From assembly GCF_003987395.1 (NCBI RefSeq), contig NZ_PIPT01000008.1, forward strand, positions 62,001-126,000: 64,000 nt of DNA. Reading direction: 5' to 3'. A program made the translations under genes and the position numbers. This document shows positions 8,225 through 49,202 of this stretch, one piece after another (the first letter of the stretch is position 1; every line of letters starts with the position of its first letter). Under the pieces are notes generated by a model that worked only from the letters and a program-made list of their open reading frames with translations, was not told the origin of the DNA and ran no database searches. The DNA comes from Pseudidiomarina aquimaris. GTDB taxonomy: Bacteria > Pseudomonadota > Gammaproteobacteria > Enterobacterales > Alteromonadaceae.

Positions 8225-8842
8225 ATGCGAGTTGCAGTGGTAGGAGCCAATGGAAAAATAGGTCAACAGCTGGTAGAGCTGTTGCACAATGATGCCGAGC
8301 ATGAGGCCGTGGCGCTGGTGCGCAAAGAAGCGCAGCAAAAACAGTGGCAGGATAAAGGTGTGGAAACACGCCTAACAGATTTAGAAGGCTCAGTGGCGCA
8401 GCTGGCCGATGCATTCGCAGGTGTTGACGCCATCGCCTTTACCGCAGGTTCAGGTGGTAATAGCGGTGATGACAAGACCTTGCTGGTCGATCTCGACGGC
8501 GCCGTGAAAACCATGGAAGCCGCGCAAGCTGCAGGCATCAAACGCTTTGTAATGGTCAGCGCCTGGCAGGCCAACAATCGCGAGAACTGGGCGGACGAAC
8601 TCAAGCCCTACTACGCCGCCAAACATTACGCCGACCGCGAACTGATGCGCAGCGGCTTGGAGTGGACCATCGTCCGACCAGGTGCGCTCACCGACGACAA
8701 AGGCAGCGGCCGCGTCGACATTGGCGAGCATCTGCCCGCCGGCAAGATACCACGCGAAGATGTCGCGCATGTGCTGCTCGGCTGTCTGACAACTGATGGT
8801 ATGGTGGGTAAGGCGTTTGATGTGATAAGCGCCTACGAGTAG
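8225..8842 (+). CDS. NAD(P)-binding atypical SDR protein (YwnB/YhfK-like)
   Basis: A 205-residue Rossmann-fold protein with the N-terminal nucleotide-binding glycine motif VVGANGKIGQQL, then SAWQANNRENW and YYAAKHYADRELMRSG. This pattern is typical of small NAD(P)H-binding atypical short-chain dehydrogenases of the YwnB/NmrA-like group, whose substrates are mostly unknown and which often act as redox-sensing or stress enzymes. The stop TAG (8840-8842) is the head of the REP doublet that follows. A fragment resembling its 5' end (leader, ATG and about five codons) recurs at 15967-15997. Confidence 0.85.
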   Translation: MRVAVVGANGKIGQQLVELLHNDAEHEAVALVRKEAQQKQWQDKGVETRLTDLEGSVAQLADAFAGVDAIAFTAGSGGNSGDDKTLLVDLDGAVKTMEAAQAAGIKRFVMVSAWQANNRENWADELKPYYAAKHYADRELMRSGLEWTIVRPGALTDDKGSGRVDIGEHLPAGKIPREDVAHVLLGCLTTDGMVGKAFDVISAYE

Positions 8843-8943
8843 CCCGTGGTTCTACCACGGGCCCACCCCGCCACCACCTCGGTGGCTTTAATAATTACCC
8901 GAGTGAGTCCCAATGCGTAACCCGCACTACAAGTGCGGGCTAC
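8839..8943. repeat. REP doublet terminating two convergent genes
   Basis: Left unit 8839-8862: GTAG head with CCCGTGG / CCACGGG stem. Right unit 8921-8943: inverted, with a different loop (stem CCCGCAC / GTGCGGG around TACAA). The left head gives the stop of the plus gene (8840-8842), and the right head gives the stop of the minus gene (8940-8942). The right hairpin is followed by TTTTT on the plus strand and could act as a terminator. Confidence 0.88.
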
Positions 8944-21753: not shown

Positions 21754-21858
21754 GTAGCCCGTAGTTCTACTACGGGTCTAACCACCCAACTACAGCGATG
21801 TCAATCAAACCACCCGAGTGTGCCCCACGGCTTCCCCCGCAGTAGAACTGCGGGCTAC
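21754..21858. repeat. REP doublet at the 3' end of the capsule operon
   Basis: Left unit 21754-21777 (GTAG head, CCCGTAG stem); right unit 21836-21858 (inverted, CCCGCAG stem). The second half of the linker matches those at 1504-1608 and 44092-44219. It ends one base before the stop codon of the aminotransferase gene. Confidence 0.9.
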
Positions 21859-37628: not shown

Positions 37629-37731
37629 GTAGCCCGCAGTTCTACTGCGGGTCAAATTATAACGTTTCGTGGTGGTTGTAGCATACACCGAGGTTGCGGG
37701 TGGTTGGACCCGTGGTAGAACCACGGGCTAC
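37629..37731. repeat. REP doublet between wza and wzb
   Basis: Left unit 37629-37652 (GTAG head, CCCGCAG/CTGCGGG stem); right unit 37709-37731 (inverted, CCCGTGG/CCACGGG stem). The two units carry different but internally compensated stems. It sits inside the operon, 9 bp before the wzb start, so it is transcribed in the polycistronic message and may stabilise or separate the wza part. Confidence 0.9.
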
Positions 37732-37798: not shown

Positions 37799-38944
37799 TT
37801 AGTTACTAATGTCGTCCGAGAAACGGCCGATGCTGTACAGGCCGGTAATCGAAGGCAGCAATTGGCTAATTACGCGGTTCCAACGTGCCACAGGCGCGGC
37901 TGTTACATACACGATGTCGCGTTGCTGCAGCTCAAATTGCTCGGCCATGACCAAAGCGATGGCGTTTTCGGCGTTCAGCTGATACACCTGTGCGATTTTG
38001 CCGCTGTCGGCTTCGGCTTGGCGAATGACGAAAATGCCTGAGGCATTGGCGGTCGATTCGAACATACCACCGGCGTCAGCTAAGGCTTCAGCAAGGGTGG
38101 TGCCTGATTGGCCCATCATGTACGACTGTGGTTTGCGCACCTCACCCAACACAAACACTTTGTTGTCGTCGTTACGTGCTACGTGCACCACGTCGTTTGG
38201 TTGCAACAAGATGTTCTGGTCAGTGTTACCGGCTTGGTACAACTCGCGTAAGTTAAAGCTACGCGCGGTGTTGCCACGGGTCAGCGTCACTTGATTCCAG
38301 TTGGCGGCTTCGTTCATGCCACCGGCGGCGTTCACGGCTTCGATGAGCGTCATTGGTACGTTGGTGACTGGCACGGTGCCTGGCTGGTTCACGGCGCCAG
38401 TTACGTACACACGCTGGCTACGGAAGGCCGCTACAGTCACATCGACCTGCGGGCTTTCAATGTACTTGGCCAAGCGCTTGGTGATGTCTTCGCGGATCTC
38501 GGTCACGCGCTTACCCGCCACCTGCACTTTGCCGATGTACGGATAGAAGATAGTACCGTCGCTATGCACCCAGTTGCCCGCTTCTTCGGCGCTACGCATG
38601 GAGCCTGCCGGAATCGTCAGCTCTGGGTGGTTCCACACGGTAATGTTCAGAATGTCGCCGCGGCCCACAGTGTAGTCATAGTTATTGCGGGCTTGCTCGA
38701 GGGCGCTATTGAACTCCGGCTTAGTGGCTGGGGTTTGCATTTCGCTGATCAGCATTGGCGAGATCTGGTACACGTCGACCAGTTTCATCAGCTCGGCTTC
38801 GCTGAACTCTTGTTCATAGGCGCTACGGCTGTCATCACTGAACAGACCGCCGCTGCTGTCGTCGGGAATGTGCCCGCCCGGAGCTAATGCACAGCCGCCG
38901 AGCCATAAGGCGAGGGTTGATACTGCTGTCAGTTTCATGTTCAT
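37799..38944 (-). CDS. wza: Outer-membrane polysaccharide export lipoprotein Wza/GfcE
   Basis: 381 residues, the usual Wza length. Lipoprotein signal (LALWLGGCALAPGG, lipid-modified Cys about residue 18). Then the polysaccharide-export domain (YTVGRGDILNITVWNHPELT) followed by SLBB domains (VYVTGAVNQPGTVPVTNVPMTL … VFVLGEVRKPQSYMMGQSGTTL) and a C-terminal amphipathic segment (RVISQLLPSITGLYSIGRF) that forms the octameric alpha-barrel across the outer membrane. Works with Wzc to export the polymer. 16 bp after the gfcD gene. Confidence 0.95.
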   Translation of the reverse strand: MNMKLTAVSTLALWLGGCALAPGGHIPDDSSGGLFSDDSRSAYEQEFSEAELMKLVDVYQISPMLISEMQTPATKPEFNSALEQARNNYDYTVGRGDILNITVWNHPELTIPAGSMRSAEEAGNWVHSDGTIFYPYIGKVQVAGKRVTEIREDITKRLAKYIESPQVDVTVAAFRSQRVYVTGAVNQPGTVPVTNVPMTLIEAVNAAGGMNEAANWNQVTLTRGNTARSFNLRELYQAGNTDQNILLQPNDVVHVARNDDNKVFVLGEVRKPQSYMMGQSGTTLAEALADAGGMFESTANASGIFVIRQAEADSGKIAQVYQLNAENAIALVMAEQFELQQRDIVYVTAAPVARWNRVISQLLPSITGLYSIGRFSDDISN

Positions 38945-38959
38945 GATTGTTGTTCCTGG

Positions 38960-41266
38960 TTAGTTCTGCCCAGCTTTATAGCCACGCGCTTCCGTAGTTT
39001 CGTATAAATTAATACTGCGATTGAGCATCTGTCCACCGTCACGCGTAATTGGCTGCCAGCCGATGCGGCCGCGCGCCAAGGTATTCCGTACGGTGAACAG
39101 GTCAAACGGAATACTTATGTAAAAGCCTTTGGTAAAGCCACCCTCGCCGTATTCTTCTCGCGAGACATTGGTGAAAGCGGCGTAGGCACCAGCGCGGACG
39201 CCGGAGTCAAATTGGTGACTGAAGTCCACTTGCACGCCTTCGTCACCAGCCAAGAAGCGCCCTGCTTGCAGTTTGATCAAGCTTTGCGGCAAGAATTCAG
39301 GCTGCCAGTAGATGCTGGCATGGCCAGTGAGCACGTCGTAGTCTTCAAAGCCGAAGCTGTTATCTGGTTCGCGTTGTTTAGCCCAGTTCAGGTCAACACC
39401 GAAGGCGAAGCGGCTGTTGAGGGGGCGATATAGTATTTCGCCACCGATACCGCCAAAGATGCGCTCTAAATAACCGCCGTAAAGGGCGTAATAGACGCTG
39501 TCGCTGGCTTGGTCGGTGTAGACCAGTTGCAGGTTTTGCAGCCACAGGTCTTGGTTGTCGTAATATTCACGAATGCGGGTGCGCACGCGTGGCAATGGGT
39601 TTTCGAGGTCATCGACCAAAAAGTTGAATTCGTCGTAGTTGTTGACGATGTTCACGCCCACGGTACCGCTGACGCGCAGGTTCGGCGTGAAGTGGTAGTA
39701 GCCTTCGCCCATCATTGCTAACTGGTAGATGTAGAAGTCTTCGGCGCCACCGAAGGACTGGCTTAAGTTTGGCGTAATGCTGTATCCGGCTTTCGTGCGG
39801 GTGGCTTGGTAGCCCGTGGTTCTACCACGGGTCACACCTGAAGTTTCCGTTGCGCTTGAACCGACACCACCCGTGGGGGTGGTTTGACCCGTGGTAGAAC
39901 CACGGGCTACGCGGACATTCGACAGCGTGAACGCGTCGTCTTCTTCGCGGTAGAAACGTTCGCCGCGAGCGGCGGATTTATAGAACGGTGCGTTGACGTT
40001 GTATTGCACGATGCCGAGGCCGTCTTTAATTTCAGCGATTTCGTAGCGGGTGACGCTTTCCGGTAGCTCGTTACTCAAAATCCGTGCGGCTTTTTCTACG
40101 GCTTCTTCACGGTCTCGGTAGCGGGTTTGCTCGGCGTACAGCGTGACGCGTTCTTGTTGCACCGCTTCGTTATTGTCATGTTCAACAGCCTTGACTGCGA
40201 AGCCGGTTTCGTTGAGCAAGGCTTGGCTTAAACGGTTCAAATCCACGTCACTAAAACCTTGCGCGCTGCTGCGTTTGGCGTCACGCAGCGGCGGCTCGGT
40301 TTTCACCTGATATGCTGTCGCTAGGTTATAACGCAAACTAAAGCCAAAGGTCATTGTGTTACCACGCTGATAACCCAGCTTTAGATTAATGAGATTGTTG
40401 TAGGCGTATTCGGCACCGAAGTTCCAGAAGCTGTCTTGCACGATTTGGCGTGGGTTTTCTGGATCAATCGGCGCTGGCAAACGTTCGCTTTGATAATCGT
40501 TCGGGTCGTATTCGGCCTTTAAGCGCAGGCCTTGAATAGGTGTACGCCACTCGACGCCACCAAAAGTCGCCGCTGGGCCTTTGAACATTTTCTCCCATTC
40601 AATATCACCGCCACCAGGCGTGGTGCCGCGCGGACGCCCGCAGAATTCGTCGGTAATTTCACAGAACGGGTTATACGAATTGTCACGTCGGCCTAAATAT
40701 CCAAAACCCAAGCCTAGGTGAAAGTCGAAGGTACCGAGATTTTCGGTATGCCAGGCTTTGCTACCGACAATGTATTCACCGCCAAATAAACCGGTACCGC
40801 CTAAGTCACGTAAGCCAATCGCCACTTCTGGTAGCCATTTTGACTCTTTCAGTGCGCGGAATTTTAGGTCGAAGCCTTTGTCTTTCAGCGTCTGATCACC
40901 TGAGAACTCAGGGTCGCGGCTGTAAAACGAATAGCGCAAATCGGTATACCGCGCGGTCGCCTCCATCCAGTCAAACAACTGCAAGGTAATGCTGGTACGG
41001 CGATAGTCGTCGGTGTCGTAGTAGCCAAGGGTCAGATGCCCTTCGCTGTTCATGCGTGCGGTTGGGGTTTGCAATAAGCCGACGCCGCCGTAATCACTGG
41101 TGGTGTATGGGTCGCGCTGGAAGCTTTGGCCGGTGGGTGGCTCGCTGCGATCTTGTGCGTGTGCCGCTGGCATTAACGGCAGGAGCACCCCTGCCCCTGC
41201 GACAGAATATGTCGCAGCTAGTACTACGGTTTTCAGCATCACGAGCGCGAGCGGCTTTAATTTCAT
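38960..41266 (-). CDS. gfcD: GfcD/YjbH-family outer-membrane protein carrying an in-frame REP doublet
   Basis: 768 residues. Signal peptide ending AAHAQ, then a YjbH domain (DYGGVGLLQTPTARMNSEGHL, FDWMEATARYTDLRY), repeated beta-strands typical of a large barrel and an aromatic-rich C-terminal half. YjbH/GfcD is required for group 4 capsule or related exopolysaccharide secretion. Residues about 453-486 are encoded by a REP doublet (39809-39910): VARGSTTG at one edge and TRGRTTGY at the other are direct translations of the two palindromes. The frame is unbroken on both sides. The insert lies between an alpha/beta-looking central part and the C-terminal barrel, so it is probably a surface or periplasmic linker. 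Its stop/start overlaps gfcBC by 4 bp. Confidence 0.9.
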   Translation of the reverse strand: MKLKPLALVMLKTVVLAATYSVAGAGVLLPLMPAAHAQDRSEPPTGQSFQRDPYTTSDYGGVGLLQTPTARMNSEGHLTLGYYDTDDYRRTSITLQLFDWMEATARYTDLRYSFYSRDPEFSGDQTLKDKGFDLKFRALKESKWLPEVAIGLRDLGGTGLFGGEYIVGSKAWHTENLGTFDFHLGLGFGYLGRRDNSYNPFCEITDEFCGRPRGTTPGGGDIEWEKMFKGPAATFGGVEWRTPIQGLRLKAEYDPNDYQSERLPAPIDPENPRQIVQDSFWNFGAEYAYNNLINLKLGYQRGNTMTFGFSLRYNLATAYQVKTEPPLRDAKRSSAQGFSDVDLNRLSQALLNETGFAVKAVEHDNNEAVQQERVTLYAEQTRYRDREEAVEKAARILSNELPESVTRYEIAEIKDGLGIVQYNVNAPFYKSAARGERFYREEDDAFTLSNVRVARGSTTGQTTPTGGVGSSATETSGVTRGRTTGYQATRTKAGYSITPNLSQSFGGAEDFYIYQLAMMGEGYYHFTPNLRVSGTVGVNIVNNYDEFNFLVDDLENPLPRVRTRIREYYDNQDLWLQNLQLVYTDQASDSVYYALYGGYLERIFGGIGGEILYRPLNSRFAFGVDLNWAKQREPDNSFGFEDYDVLTGHASIYWQPEFLPQSLIKLQAGRFLAGDEGVQVDFSHQFDSGVRAGAYAAFTNVSREEYGEGGFTKGFYISIPFDLFTVRNTLARGRIGWQPITRDGGQMLNRSINLYETTEARGYKAGQN
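39809..39910. repeat. REP doublet inside the gfcD (yjbH) coding sequence
   Basis: Left unit 39809-39832 and right unit 39888-39910, both CCCGTGG/CCACGGG with outward GTAG heads, 102 bp in all (34 codons). Every other full doublet in the window is intergenic. Here both palindromes and the linker are read through without a stop on the minus strand. Confidence 0.92.
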
Positions 41267-42747
41267 TGCGCGCTCCGTGTTTTGGCTTGGGCTTGCGTCA
41301 TTAATTCCTTGGGTAGCAACGCCGCCACCGGAGCTTGCGTATAATCCCAGTGCTGCAAAAACATCGCCAATTGCGCGTTCAGATCGCGGAAACCGCGTGG
41401 TAATTGTGCTTCAGCAATGGTGGTCAGAGTCACACCCGGCATCGCGCCGATCGTTTGCGCGGGCTTGCCGGCAGTGCTCGGCTCGAGCTTGCGGATGCTG
41501 CCATCAGGCTGTACCAGCCAACGTTCGGTCGCAACCGCATCCGTTAAGGTGTTAGTCGCTTTGCTCAGGCCCGTCGCCAGCGCCAAAGCGGGTGCCAACA
41601 CTATTTCATATTCTTTATCGGCGTCATGCGGGTTCAACGCCGGGTTCTCGCCGATGGTCAAGCGCATCTGCGCTGGGTCGATGCCATGCACGTAGCTGGC
41701 CCGCAATGGCCATTGCTGAAATTGCTGGGTCAGTGCGTGCGCCGCATCGGCAAGTGCCGTTTCACCGTCATGTCGATAGGTTTGCTCTAGCATGCGCAAG
41801 CGCTTCAGCATACCGGCTTTGCGCGCACTAAAACGCTGGTCGAGCTTATCGCTGTAGATGCGCAGCCCGGGCCAATAGCTATCTGGATACAGCTGACGCT
41901 GCATGGCGGTCACGAATTCGTTGAGGCGCGGCGCGATTTCTTCACCATTGATGTTGCGCACTTGCACCGGCGCTTGGAAGCGGGTGATTTGCGGCTCGCC
42001 CCGTGGCGCGTTCGGGCTAGTAAGGCTGACCATCTCGAGATTTACATAGCCGTGCATGGGGCTCAGCCATTGCTTGCTCTCGATCACGTACTTGCCGTCG
42101 GAGCTTAAGCGATAACTGTTAGTGAATTCGTACTGCTCGCGCTTGCCTTCATTTGAAGCTCCAGTCGTAACGGCCGTGCCAGTTTCGGTGATATCACGGC
42201 CGTTACGGTTGAAGCTTGAGTTGAGGGTGAGGCTGACGATTTCGTATTGCGGGTTGTGCGGGTCAAAGGTGGCGACGGGGCGTTTGAGCTGGATCGTTCG
42301 CTCAAAGTCGGTCGGGCACGTTCGCTCGCTGCTGCCTTGCGCCGCTTGGCTGTTGTGCAGATAACAACTCAGTGGGTCGTCGGCGAGGTAAGAGGTATGG
42401 ATGCGGTTTTCTAGTTCGAGCTGGCTGCTGCGGATCACGCGACCTTGCCATAAAGTCAGTGCTTCGCCACCGGCGGACACCCAGTACTGGCCGTCGGTGC
42501 CATTTACAGCTGCGGCGAGAATGGTTCGAGGTGCGTCACCGATTTGTACGTACGTAACCGGATAAGGCGCTTGCAGGAGGGTTTCGCGATCAGGCGCTTG
42601 CGGCGCATCGCCGAACAGAAAATCAAAAGACGCTTGCGCAGCAGAAAGCTGACTGCTTTCTTCCGAGCTAAGCGATTTAAACGTTGAACAGCCGCCTAAG
42701 CCACTTGCAACTGCAAGCGCCAGAGCGGCTGTTATGACACCACGCAT
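41263..42747 (-). CDS. GfcB-GfcC (YjbF-YjbG) fusion lipoprotein
   Basis: 494 residues. Lipobox SGLGGC followed by STFKSL. The N-terminal ~210 residues look like YjbF/GfcB (APYPVTYVQIGDAPRTILAAAV…DGQYWVSAGGEALTLWQGRVI…). The C-terminal ~240 residues fit the YjbG/GfcC capsule protein (a GfcC-type helical bundle followed by YEIVLAPALAL and LPRGFRDLNAQLAMFLQHW). In E. coli these are two separate genes of about 210 and 245 codons, so the total length matches a fusion. It would couple the outer-membrane lipoprotein and periplasmic subunits of the GfcBCD assembly. Assignment of the C-terminal half is less certain than the N-terminal half. Confidence 0.75.
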   Translation of the reverse strand: MRGVITAALALAVASGLGGCSTFKSLSSEESSQLSAAQASFDFLFGDAPQAPDRETLLQAPYPVTYVQIGDAPRTILAAAVNGTDGQYWVSAGGEALTLWQGRVIRSSQLELENRIHTSYLADDPLSCYLHNSQAAQGSSERTCPTDFERTIQLKRPVATFDPHNPQYEIVSLTLNSSFNRNGRDITETGTAVTTGASNEGKREQYEFTNSYRLSSDGKYVIESKQWLSPMHGYVNLEMVSLTSPNAPRGEPQITRFQAPVQVRNINGEEIAPRLNEFVTAMQRQLYPDSYWPGLRIYSDKLDQRFSARKAGMLKRLRMLEQTYRHDGETALADAAHALTQQFQQWPLRASYVHGIDPAQMRLTIGENPALNPHDADKEYEIVLAPALALATGLSKATNTLTDAVATERWLVQPDGSIRKLEPSTAGKPAQTIGAMPGVTLTTIAEAQLPRGFRDLNAQLAMFLQHWDYTQAPVAALLPKELMTQAQAKTRSAQ

Positions 42748-43117: not shown

Positions 43118-43280
43118 GTAGCCCGTAGTTCTACTACGGGTTAAACTTAAACATTACGGTAATTTTTAAACAGTTACGCTAAGTTATAGCATCTGATGAT
43201 GTTTTGAACAACCGCTTTACAATCGGAATTTACATCGCGGATCAATTCGGATTTTCCCCGTGGTAGAACCACGGGCTACC
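43118..43280. repeat. REP doublet in the capsule operon leader
   Basis: Left unit 43118-43141 (CCCGTAG stem) and right unit 43257-43280 (CCCGTGG stem), heads outward. The linker (about 115 bp) is longer than the usual 50-60 bp. It lies downstream of ops and upstream of gfcA, so the hairpins would form in the 5' leader RNA. Confidence 0.9.
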
Positions 43281-44091: not shown

Positions 44092-44219
44092 GTAGCCCGT
44101 AGTTCTACTACGGGCCTAACGCGAACCCACCACAGTGTTTGCTACAAACTTACCGCGGCGTCTTGAGCAACCACTCGAGTGCGCCCCACAGCTTCCCCCG
44201 TGGTTGAACCACGGGCTAC
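44092..44219. repeat. REP doublet between the flippase gene and rfaH
   Basis: Left unit 44092-44115 (CCCGTAG stem), right unit 44197-44219 (inverted, CCCGTGG stem, loop TTGAA). The right-hand head on the minus strand supplies the TAG stop (44216-44218) of the flippase gene. The linker before the right unit is shared with the doublets at 1504 and 21754. Confidence 0.9.
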
Positions 44220-49104: not shown

Positions 49105-49202
49105 GTAGCCCGTAGTTCTACTACGGGGTGAGTTCGACGTTTTCCGTAATGTTAAACATTTCCCGTGTGGCGCGTTTGACCCGTGGTAGAACCACGGGCT
49201 AC
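49105..49202. repeat. REP doublet between the SLBB export gene and pgi
   Basis: Left unit 49105-49127 (CCCGTAG stem), right unit 49180-49202 (inverted, CCCGTGG stem). The right head on the minus strand provides the TAG stop (49199-49201) of the SLBB protein gene. The left unit is just upstream of the pgi ribosome site. Confidence 0.9.

Follow-up and report, generated by a model that had tools for sequence, protein, structure and literature searches.

An in-frame REP doublet within gfcD/yjbH of Pseudidiomarina aquimaris, and in-frame REPs in other genes of the genus

How does a palindromic repeat come to lie in frame within a conserved gene for polysaccharide export, and how is it tolerated there? 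REPs are usually treated as extragenic, and a 2025 survey reported that they seldom overlap coding regions (PMC12306157). The question arises at the gfcD (yjbH) gene of Pseudidiomarina aquimaris, which we analyzed within a window of 64,000 nucleotides, the whole stretch considered here (positions 62001-126000 of contig C21 in the 2.80 Mb genome, G000; other genomes are likewise given by number). In-frame intragenic REPs are already known. GTAG REPs situated within genes, single or as dimers and in frame, were described in 2013, more than half of them dimers or groups coding for 20-30 amino acids; some genes had been hit twice, recB of two Xanthomonas species had been hit at about the same site, neutrality within linkers was proposed as the explanation, and EPS genes of Thauera were flanked by REP arrays (PMC3733652). 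The gfcD doublet is therefore not new in kind and adds one more case.

What deserves follow-up is the genus-wide set of in-frame, mostly well-kept REPs. Pseudidiomarina offers a compact collection of these, a dozen genes in several species with and without the transposase. Two questions become testable with it: can a mobile element furnish protein linkers as a matter of routine, and do intragenic palindromes persist through selection, through homogenisation, or only because they arrived recently? The host genes described in 2013 belong to several categories, many of them DNA synthesis and repair, and differ from the Pseudidiomarina set; the main text of that paper names no Idiomarina, dihydrolipoamide, pyruvate dehydrogenase or hscA, and we found no counterpart there to the frame preference and cross-species palindrome upkeep described below (PMC3733652). 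Neither coding REPs in Idiomarinaceae nor REPs in gfcD/yjbH came up in a search of the open-licence literature.

The doublet and its host gene

The gfcD/yjbH gene (38960..41266, minus strand, 768 codons) belongs to a family of outer-membrane polysaccharide export proteins. It was assigned from its open reading frame and from Pfam, with residues 56-759 matching YjbH (PF06082) over profile positions 2-657 of 658 (E = 8.5e-227); the family match extends along the full length and the gene is whole. An NCBIfam scan of the protein gave just a sub-threshold hit to PorV, and a PDB sequence search at E 0.01 gave no match. Directly downstream is a gfcE/wza-like gene (37799..38944, minus strand), named from resemblance and from the gene order gfcD-gfcE-etp-etk of E. 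coli K-12, and an upstream ORF on the same strand (41263..42747, minus) overlaps the start of gfcD. The nearest named relatives of the gene are those of Pseudidiomarina terrestris, P. atlantica, and P. piscicola. Six orthologues are 76-82% identical in their best segments. Comparison with six relatives, before and after the insert, gave dN/dS values of 0.059-0.117 in 11 of 12 cases, the twelfth being saturated, with silent distances of 1.3-2.5 in all comparisons, which is near saturation. Purifying selection acts on gfcD on both sides of the insert. A second gfcD paralogue, 48% identical, lies outside the window (G000 C21:144907-146967) and contains no REP-like sequence when up to four mismatches are allowed.

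The doublet itself (39809..39910, minus strand) is 102 bp long and coincides exactly with codons 453-486, or 34 codons, base 39910 being the first of codon 453 and base 39809 the last of codon 486. It is an inverted, head-to-head pair, and its translation reads VARGSTTG-QTTPTGGVGSSATETSGV-TRGRTTGY. The leading arm in the coding sense (39888..39910, minus strand) is in phase 0 and encodes VARGSTTG; the spacer (39832..39887, minus strand) begins TCAAACCACCCCCACGGG; and the trailing, reverse arm (39809..39831, minus strand) is in phase 1 and encodes TRGRTTGY. Measured as an inverted repeat, the arms are 30 nt each and 97% complementary, with 42 nt between them. Both carry a GTAG head followed by a GC-rich palindrome, GTAG-CCCGTGG-TTCTA-CCACGGG. 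The earlier note had described a complete REP doublet translated within gfcD, and this description of the sequence holds in full: the coordinates and sequence are exact, the frame is open, and the Pfam match spans the protein. Its suggestion of a strong mRNA hairpin in the middle of the gene agrees with the predicted RNA fold of -67.9 kcal/mol (z = -8.54). The insert would be translated in the cell, probably as part of a floppy protein linker.

Seven other REP pairs are present in the window. One of these (37629..37731, no strand assigned) belongs to the same REP family and is situated between the etp-like and gfcE/wza-like genes; one of its arms has a spacer start, TCCAACCACCCGC, related to that of gfcD, and its arms sit in two small opposite-strand frames (outside the Pfam scan) between the annotated neighbours. 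The others lie at 1504-1608, 8839-8943, 21754-21858, 43118-43279, 44092-44219, and 49105-49202. Five of the seven are not enclosed by any 100-aa frame, a 217-aa frame without a Pfam match surrounds the pair at 21754, and none lies within an ORF with such a match. The earlier statement that every other REP pair is intergenic thus stands for the window but not for the genome, since G000 has seven single arms inside five other genes (HscA, AceF, Der, and RodZ with one each, BkdB with three). An additional arm is found in the C-terminal tail of RibF. At 8839-8943, the GTAG head of the REP provides the TAG stop codon of a 205-aa ORF (8225-8842).

REPs, RAYT genes, and reading frames in the genus

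The REP pattern has 59 exact matches in G000 (27 forward, 32 reverse) compared with none for a backwards control, so these matches are not due to chance. They are mostly extragenic: nine are internal to Pfam-supported genes and a tenth lies at the end of ribF, a count based on Pfam scanning of 20 enclosing frames. A 24-mer REP at C21:54434, in a 113-aa frame outside that scan, is among the 59 and was not counted as coding. Contig C21 carries 27 of the 59 on 6.2% of the genome. The matches form 21 inverted doublets with preferred spacings, eight of 88 bp, three of 89 bp, four of 105 bp, and six others of 80-162 bp. The likely parents of the gfcD copy are 105 bp long as opposed to the 102 bp observed here, a discrepancy that counts against the explanation that we favor below.

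In several species REPs are dense over approximately 100-150 kb around a RAYT gene located beside der. This RAYT adjoins der at C1:1287250 in G018, C3:610033 in G003, C1:200013 in G007, and C9:392571 in G012; it is flanked by REPs on both sides in G018, G008, G003, and G012, and G002 retains a fragment. At least 76 of 139 REPs in G018 lie within 150 kb of the RAYT, as do 30 of 41 in G007 and 17 of 40 in G003 within 100 kb; G003 has 13 further REPs within 50 kb of gfcD, on another contig. The der-side RAYT was not found on contig C21 of G000, which was read except for about 1.1 kb, and the single Y1_Tnp gene of that genome is longer and has no REP of the gfcD-doublet family beside it, leaving G000 with no RAYT flanked by such REPs. 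This absence weakens the claim that the gfcD copy is mobile at present, which is doubtful, rather than the claim about its origin. Degenerate REPs persist beside der in G000. Within 275 kb of REP-dense G018 sequence, only 7 of 133 REP-like sequences are internal to genes (Der, RodZ, HscA, AceF), all in phase 0, so coding REPs are a small minority.

The GTAG head, the inverted doublet as a unit, and a RAYT with REPs on both sides in relatives are features shared with the REPIN/RAYT systems (PMC3116915, PMC2817692). Elements are described as extragenic in those two papers, whereas a minority in Pseudidiomarina lie in translated frames. Work from 2010 proposed that new REPs form near the rayt gene and noted that palindromicity is retained despite mutations (PMC2817692).

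We propose that a GTAG-type REP doublet, a non-autonomous REPIN that relies on a RAYT transposase for its movement, entered gfcD in an ancestor of several Pseudidiomarina species. Retention of the insertion would be explained by a length that is a multiple of three, by arms that are both open (left in phase 0, VARxSTxG; right in phase 1, xRxRTxGY), and by a position between the periplasmic middle domain and the second barrel where length is free to vary. Other genes of the genus, often close to the RAYT but also away from it, would have been hit in the same way; these coding insertions would have survived in hydrophilic linkers, and many would later have lost one arm and part of the spacer. 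We assign this reading a probability of about 0.85. The role of a RAYT as the mover of the gfcD element is suggested by the clustering of REPs around this gene in relatives, and the insert itself would be neutral or nearly so.

In-frame REPs occur in twelve genes of the genus: gfcD (at two sites), three E2 subunits, Der, HscA, RodZ, GspC/E/J/L, and a CBS protein. An orthologue search in all 26 genomes recovered 25 frames for Der, 25 for BkdB, 26 for HscA, and 24 for RodZ, with AceF taken from 22 genomes, and some species have the in-frame REPs where others do not. Two are found in SucB of G018 and G008, and what may be a decayed copy in that of G003; none is present in the SucB of G000, G002, G013, or G006. 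G007 has in-frame REPs in GspC, GspE (whose frame runs off the sequence compared), GspJ, GspL, and RodZ, and G012 has one in a cNMP/CBS/DUF294 protein. The flanks of coding REPs are richer in small and polar residues (0.83 versus 0.67). Frames of the PAVELRAT kind and related ones at the starts of peptidase S9, PALP, methyltransferase, response regulator, and DUF1543 ORFs were omitted from the coding counts because they lie upstream of the Pfam domain and a likely start. Also outside the internal counts are the arm in the tail of RibF, the GspJ leaders, whose start codon is ambiguous, and a REP at the N-terminus of a LysR protein in G007.

Peptides of the form VARxSTxG come from the leading arms, and xRxxTxGY is the usual reading of the opposite arms. 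Among orthologues of der, bkdB, hscA, aceF, and rodZ, forward REPs are in phase 0 in 55 of 55 cases and reverse arms in phase 1 in 5 of 5. This preference is partly a result of stop codons, left phase 2 being closed by a stop from the GTAG head and right phase 2 by stops from the stem in the TGG, TAG, and CAG classes of G000. The GGC class has no such stop in right phase 2, and its frame is therefore not dictated by geometry alone. Six of the 21 doublets of G000 have a length of 3n, and five of those six are open, all with the left arm in phase 0 and the right arm in phase 1, reading VARx...xRxxTxGY, VARx...xSAGY, or a near variant; doublets of other lengths, even where another frame of theirs is open, would throw the gene out of frame. 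The stronger statement that the frame is always the same was weakened by the second gfcD site, where the span is 113 bp and the decayed right arm is in phase 0.

Traces of spacer remain behind single coding REPs. All 19 spacer scores exceed those of codon shuffles (z 0.45 to 3.60, combined 8.1), where the 19 include related sequences and the 81 profile flanks include gfcD copies; 8 of the 19 are below zero in absolute terms, compared with a mean of 7.7 for non-coding REPs. Judged by these traces, single coding REPs look like REPINs minus one arm.

Upkeep of coding palindromes

A leading alternative is that the coding palindromes, including that of gfcD, are kept at the DNA level, either by renewal from and co-evolution with genomic REPs or as functional hairpins. 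We regard this as possible, with the odds leaning against it. All seven stem pairs are intact in 52 of 55 forward coding REPs from five gene families, although equal perfection would be expected from recent insertion. Fourfold sites are identical in 256 of 312 cases in orthologous REP codons and in 4544 of 8214 elsewhere in the same genes, a comparison in which the species pairs overlap and are not independent; some pairs show no excess at all (rodZ in G000-G018, 3/6 versus 57/111; aceF in G008-G003, 2/5 versus 105/218). Stem upkeep and fourfold identity would be given alike by recent insertion, homogenisation, or selection on a hairpin. Switches of stem class at a single site with both sides of the stem changed favor replacement or paired change: Der and HscA have CAG/CTG or TAG/CTA, and the gfcD stem is TGG/CCA in G000 and TAG/CTA in G003, the rest of the 23-mer being unchanged. 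Coding REPs also match the class of their own genome, GGC in G012 and TGG in G007 (all 41 genomic copies). On the other side, G013 has coding REPs of the TAC class, to which the search pattern is blind, and six exact genomic hits that belong to other classes. Several coding REPs have also decayed: in G003 the gfcD right arm and the third of the BkdB sites, in G013 the HscA copy and the second of those sites, and in addition the right arm of the second gfcD site.

A wider and more doubtful reading would join these observations. Pseudidiomarina REPINs might be a recurrent source of linkers with one favored frame, the insertions surviving between the domains of core enzymes and envelope proteins. 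RAYT-guided or recombinational replacement might actively maintain their palindromes as DNA even as they are translated, so that coding copies would co-evolve with the genomic REPs. We advance this tentatively.

Our preferred account of insertion followed by retention has a parallel in the Rickettsia palindromic elements (RPEs), which are likewise palindromes in frame within functional genes (PMC3733652, PMC6649704, PMC5656822). RPEs are described as losing repeat identity with time (PMC6649704), whereas most Pseudidiomarina coding REPs have full stems. Set beside RPEs by description only, the likeness is one of mode of working and not of membership.

Place and history of the gfcD insert

The insert interval aligns with about residues 395-418 of E. 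coli GfcD, a member of the same GfcD/YjbH family, for which published models give two barrels and a middle domain (PMC11494523, PMC8592465) with the boundary between middle domain (M) and second barrel (C) at 423/424 (PMC11494523). By alignment, then, the insert adjoins the published boundary of the middle domain and second barrel, in a stretch whose length varies. The matching part of E. coli GfcD lacks a REP and consists of unrelated residues. Among 40 homologous frames, a set that counts the query itself and three duplicates, the interval is between 23 and 60 residues long. An AlphaFold2 model of GfcD built from 11 sequences was poor overall (mean pLDDT 48.9, pTM 0.36), with a strand pattern compatible with two barrels and a middle domain. 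Residues 451-490 have pLDDT values of 23-31, among the lowest of this model, and 450-491 have no predicted regular structure, consistent with a REP-coded linker that may be disordered. The idea that the insert occupies a flexible loop is thus upheld by the alignments as far as a length-variable stretch at a domain junction is concerned, and the structure model agrees at low confidence.

Could the peptide instead have been exapted, for example as a linker that spaces the GfcD middle domain from the barrel with its lateral gate? We consider this unlikely. The G003 protein kept the peptide while its right palindrome decayed, and where a lone arm survives it is mostly VARxSTxG, at about 13 sites compared with 2 for the right arm (a hand count of sites that are not all independent). 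As DNA the doublet is symmetric, so this excess hints at selection on the peptide; an earlier form of the observation, that the left arm alone ever survives singly, was dropped upon finding two right-arm-only cases in G007 (GspC and GspJ). Against exaptation, gfcD orthologues manage without the linker, and the stretch varies freely in composition and length.

Orthologue alignment confirmed that relatives match both flanks and lack all or part of the insert, as the earlier note had anticipated, and none of the aligned homologues from other genera has the 34 residues; their occurrence across many genera with non-REP codons was what the note had set as refuting its reading. Seven close orthologues (G000, G002, G003, G004, G005, G006, G013) include three with REP sequence at the insert point. 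Thus two of the six relatives (G002 and G003) have REP remnants at the same place and in the same frame, and the other four have no recognisable REP. The G002 gene contains one arm (VARGSTTGQTSPTG), its trailing arm being absent. In G003 there is an exact left arm of another stem class, differing from the 23-base arm of G000 solely by one swapped stem pair (TAG/CTA versus TGG/CCA), followed by a longer spacer and a decayed right arm, TRSRTTGY, which is four base changes and one amino-acid change removed from TRGRTTGY. A 17-nt spacer core, CAAACCA(C/G)CC(C/G)CACGGG, is common to all three genes and follows a REP solely in gfcD among the loci compared. The start of the gfcD spacer resembles that of nearby intergenic REPs, as local insertion would predict. 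Shared place, frame, and spacer core favor one old insertion with later decay, rather than three insertions, as the likely history.

The competing history, with a hot spot at codons 453-486 that was hit independently in each of the three genes, appears rather improbable. REPs are frequent around gfcD, and a second, separate in-frame insertion did strike its middle domain in G012 and G019, leaving a left arm that matches exactly (VARRSTPG) and a right arm that has decayed, over a span of 113 bp. In HscA, one loop holds different REP classes in two clades: single arms of CAG or TAG type in the first (G000, G018, G008, G002; a decayed copy in G013) and a GGC-type doublet in the second (G012, G019, G022, G023; the left arm only in G011, none in G017), with REP-free species falling between the two. 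These precedents are outweighed by the place, frame, and spacer core that the gfcD copies share, the core being found behind no other REP compared, and by the G003 right arm, which is a recognisable decayed form of that in G000. With remnants in two relatives, a second gfcD site in two species, and REPs in other genes, the view of the insertion as a singular event had to be given up. An assembly error or a dead gene, for which nothing was found beyond the oddity itself, deserves almost no credence given the open frame, purifying selection on both sides, and homologous remnants in other assemblies.

Several further observations concern REPs in other proteins. REP-coded peptides occur near the RAYT in GspC, GspE, GspJ, and GspL of G007, and the GspE and GspL doublets, VARGSTTGKT(T/S)PDGNAS(P/T)RGRTTGY, are of a shorter type that is likewise in frame. 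In GspJ, a T2SS pseudopilin, REPs precede the prepilin leader in an open frame, as a doublet in G000 (L121:497-1282, minus strand, corresponding to C21 about 153500-154280), an array in G018 (L308:7759-9039), and a single arm in G012 (L320:10267-11199); in G000, a GTG within the REP could serve as the start codon of the leader. Finally, the linkers of AceF in G008 (L238) contain five copies of the REP octapeptide; in four of them GTAC or GAAC replaces the GTAG head, which would fit loss of the RAYT tag followed by duplication of the unit as a linker repeat.
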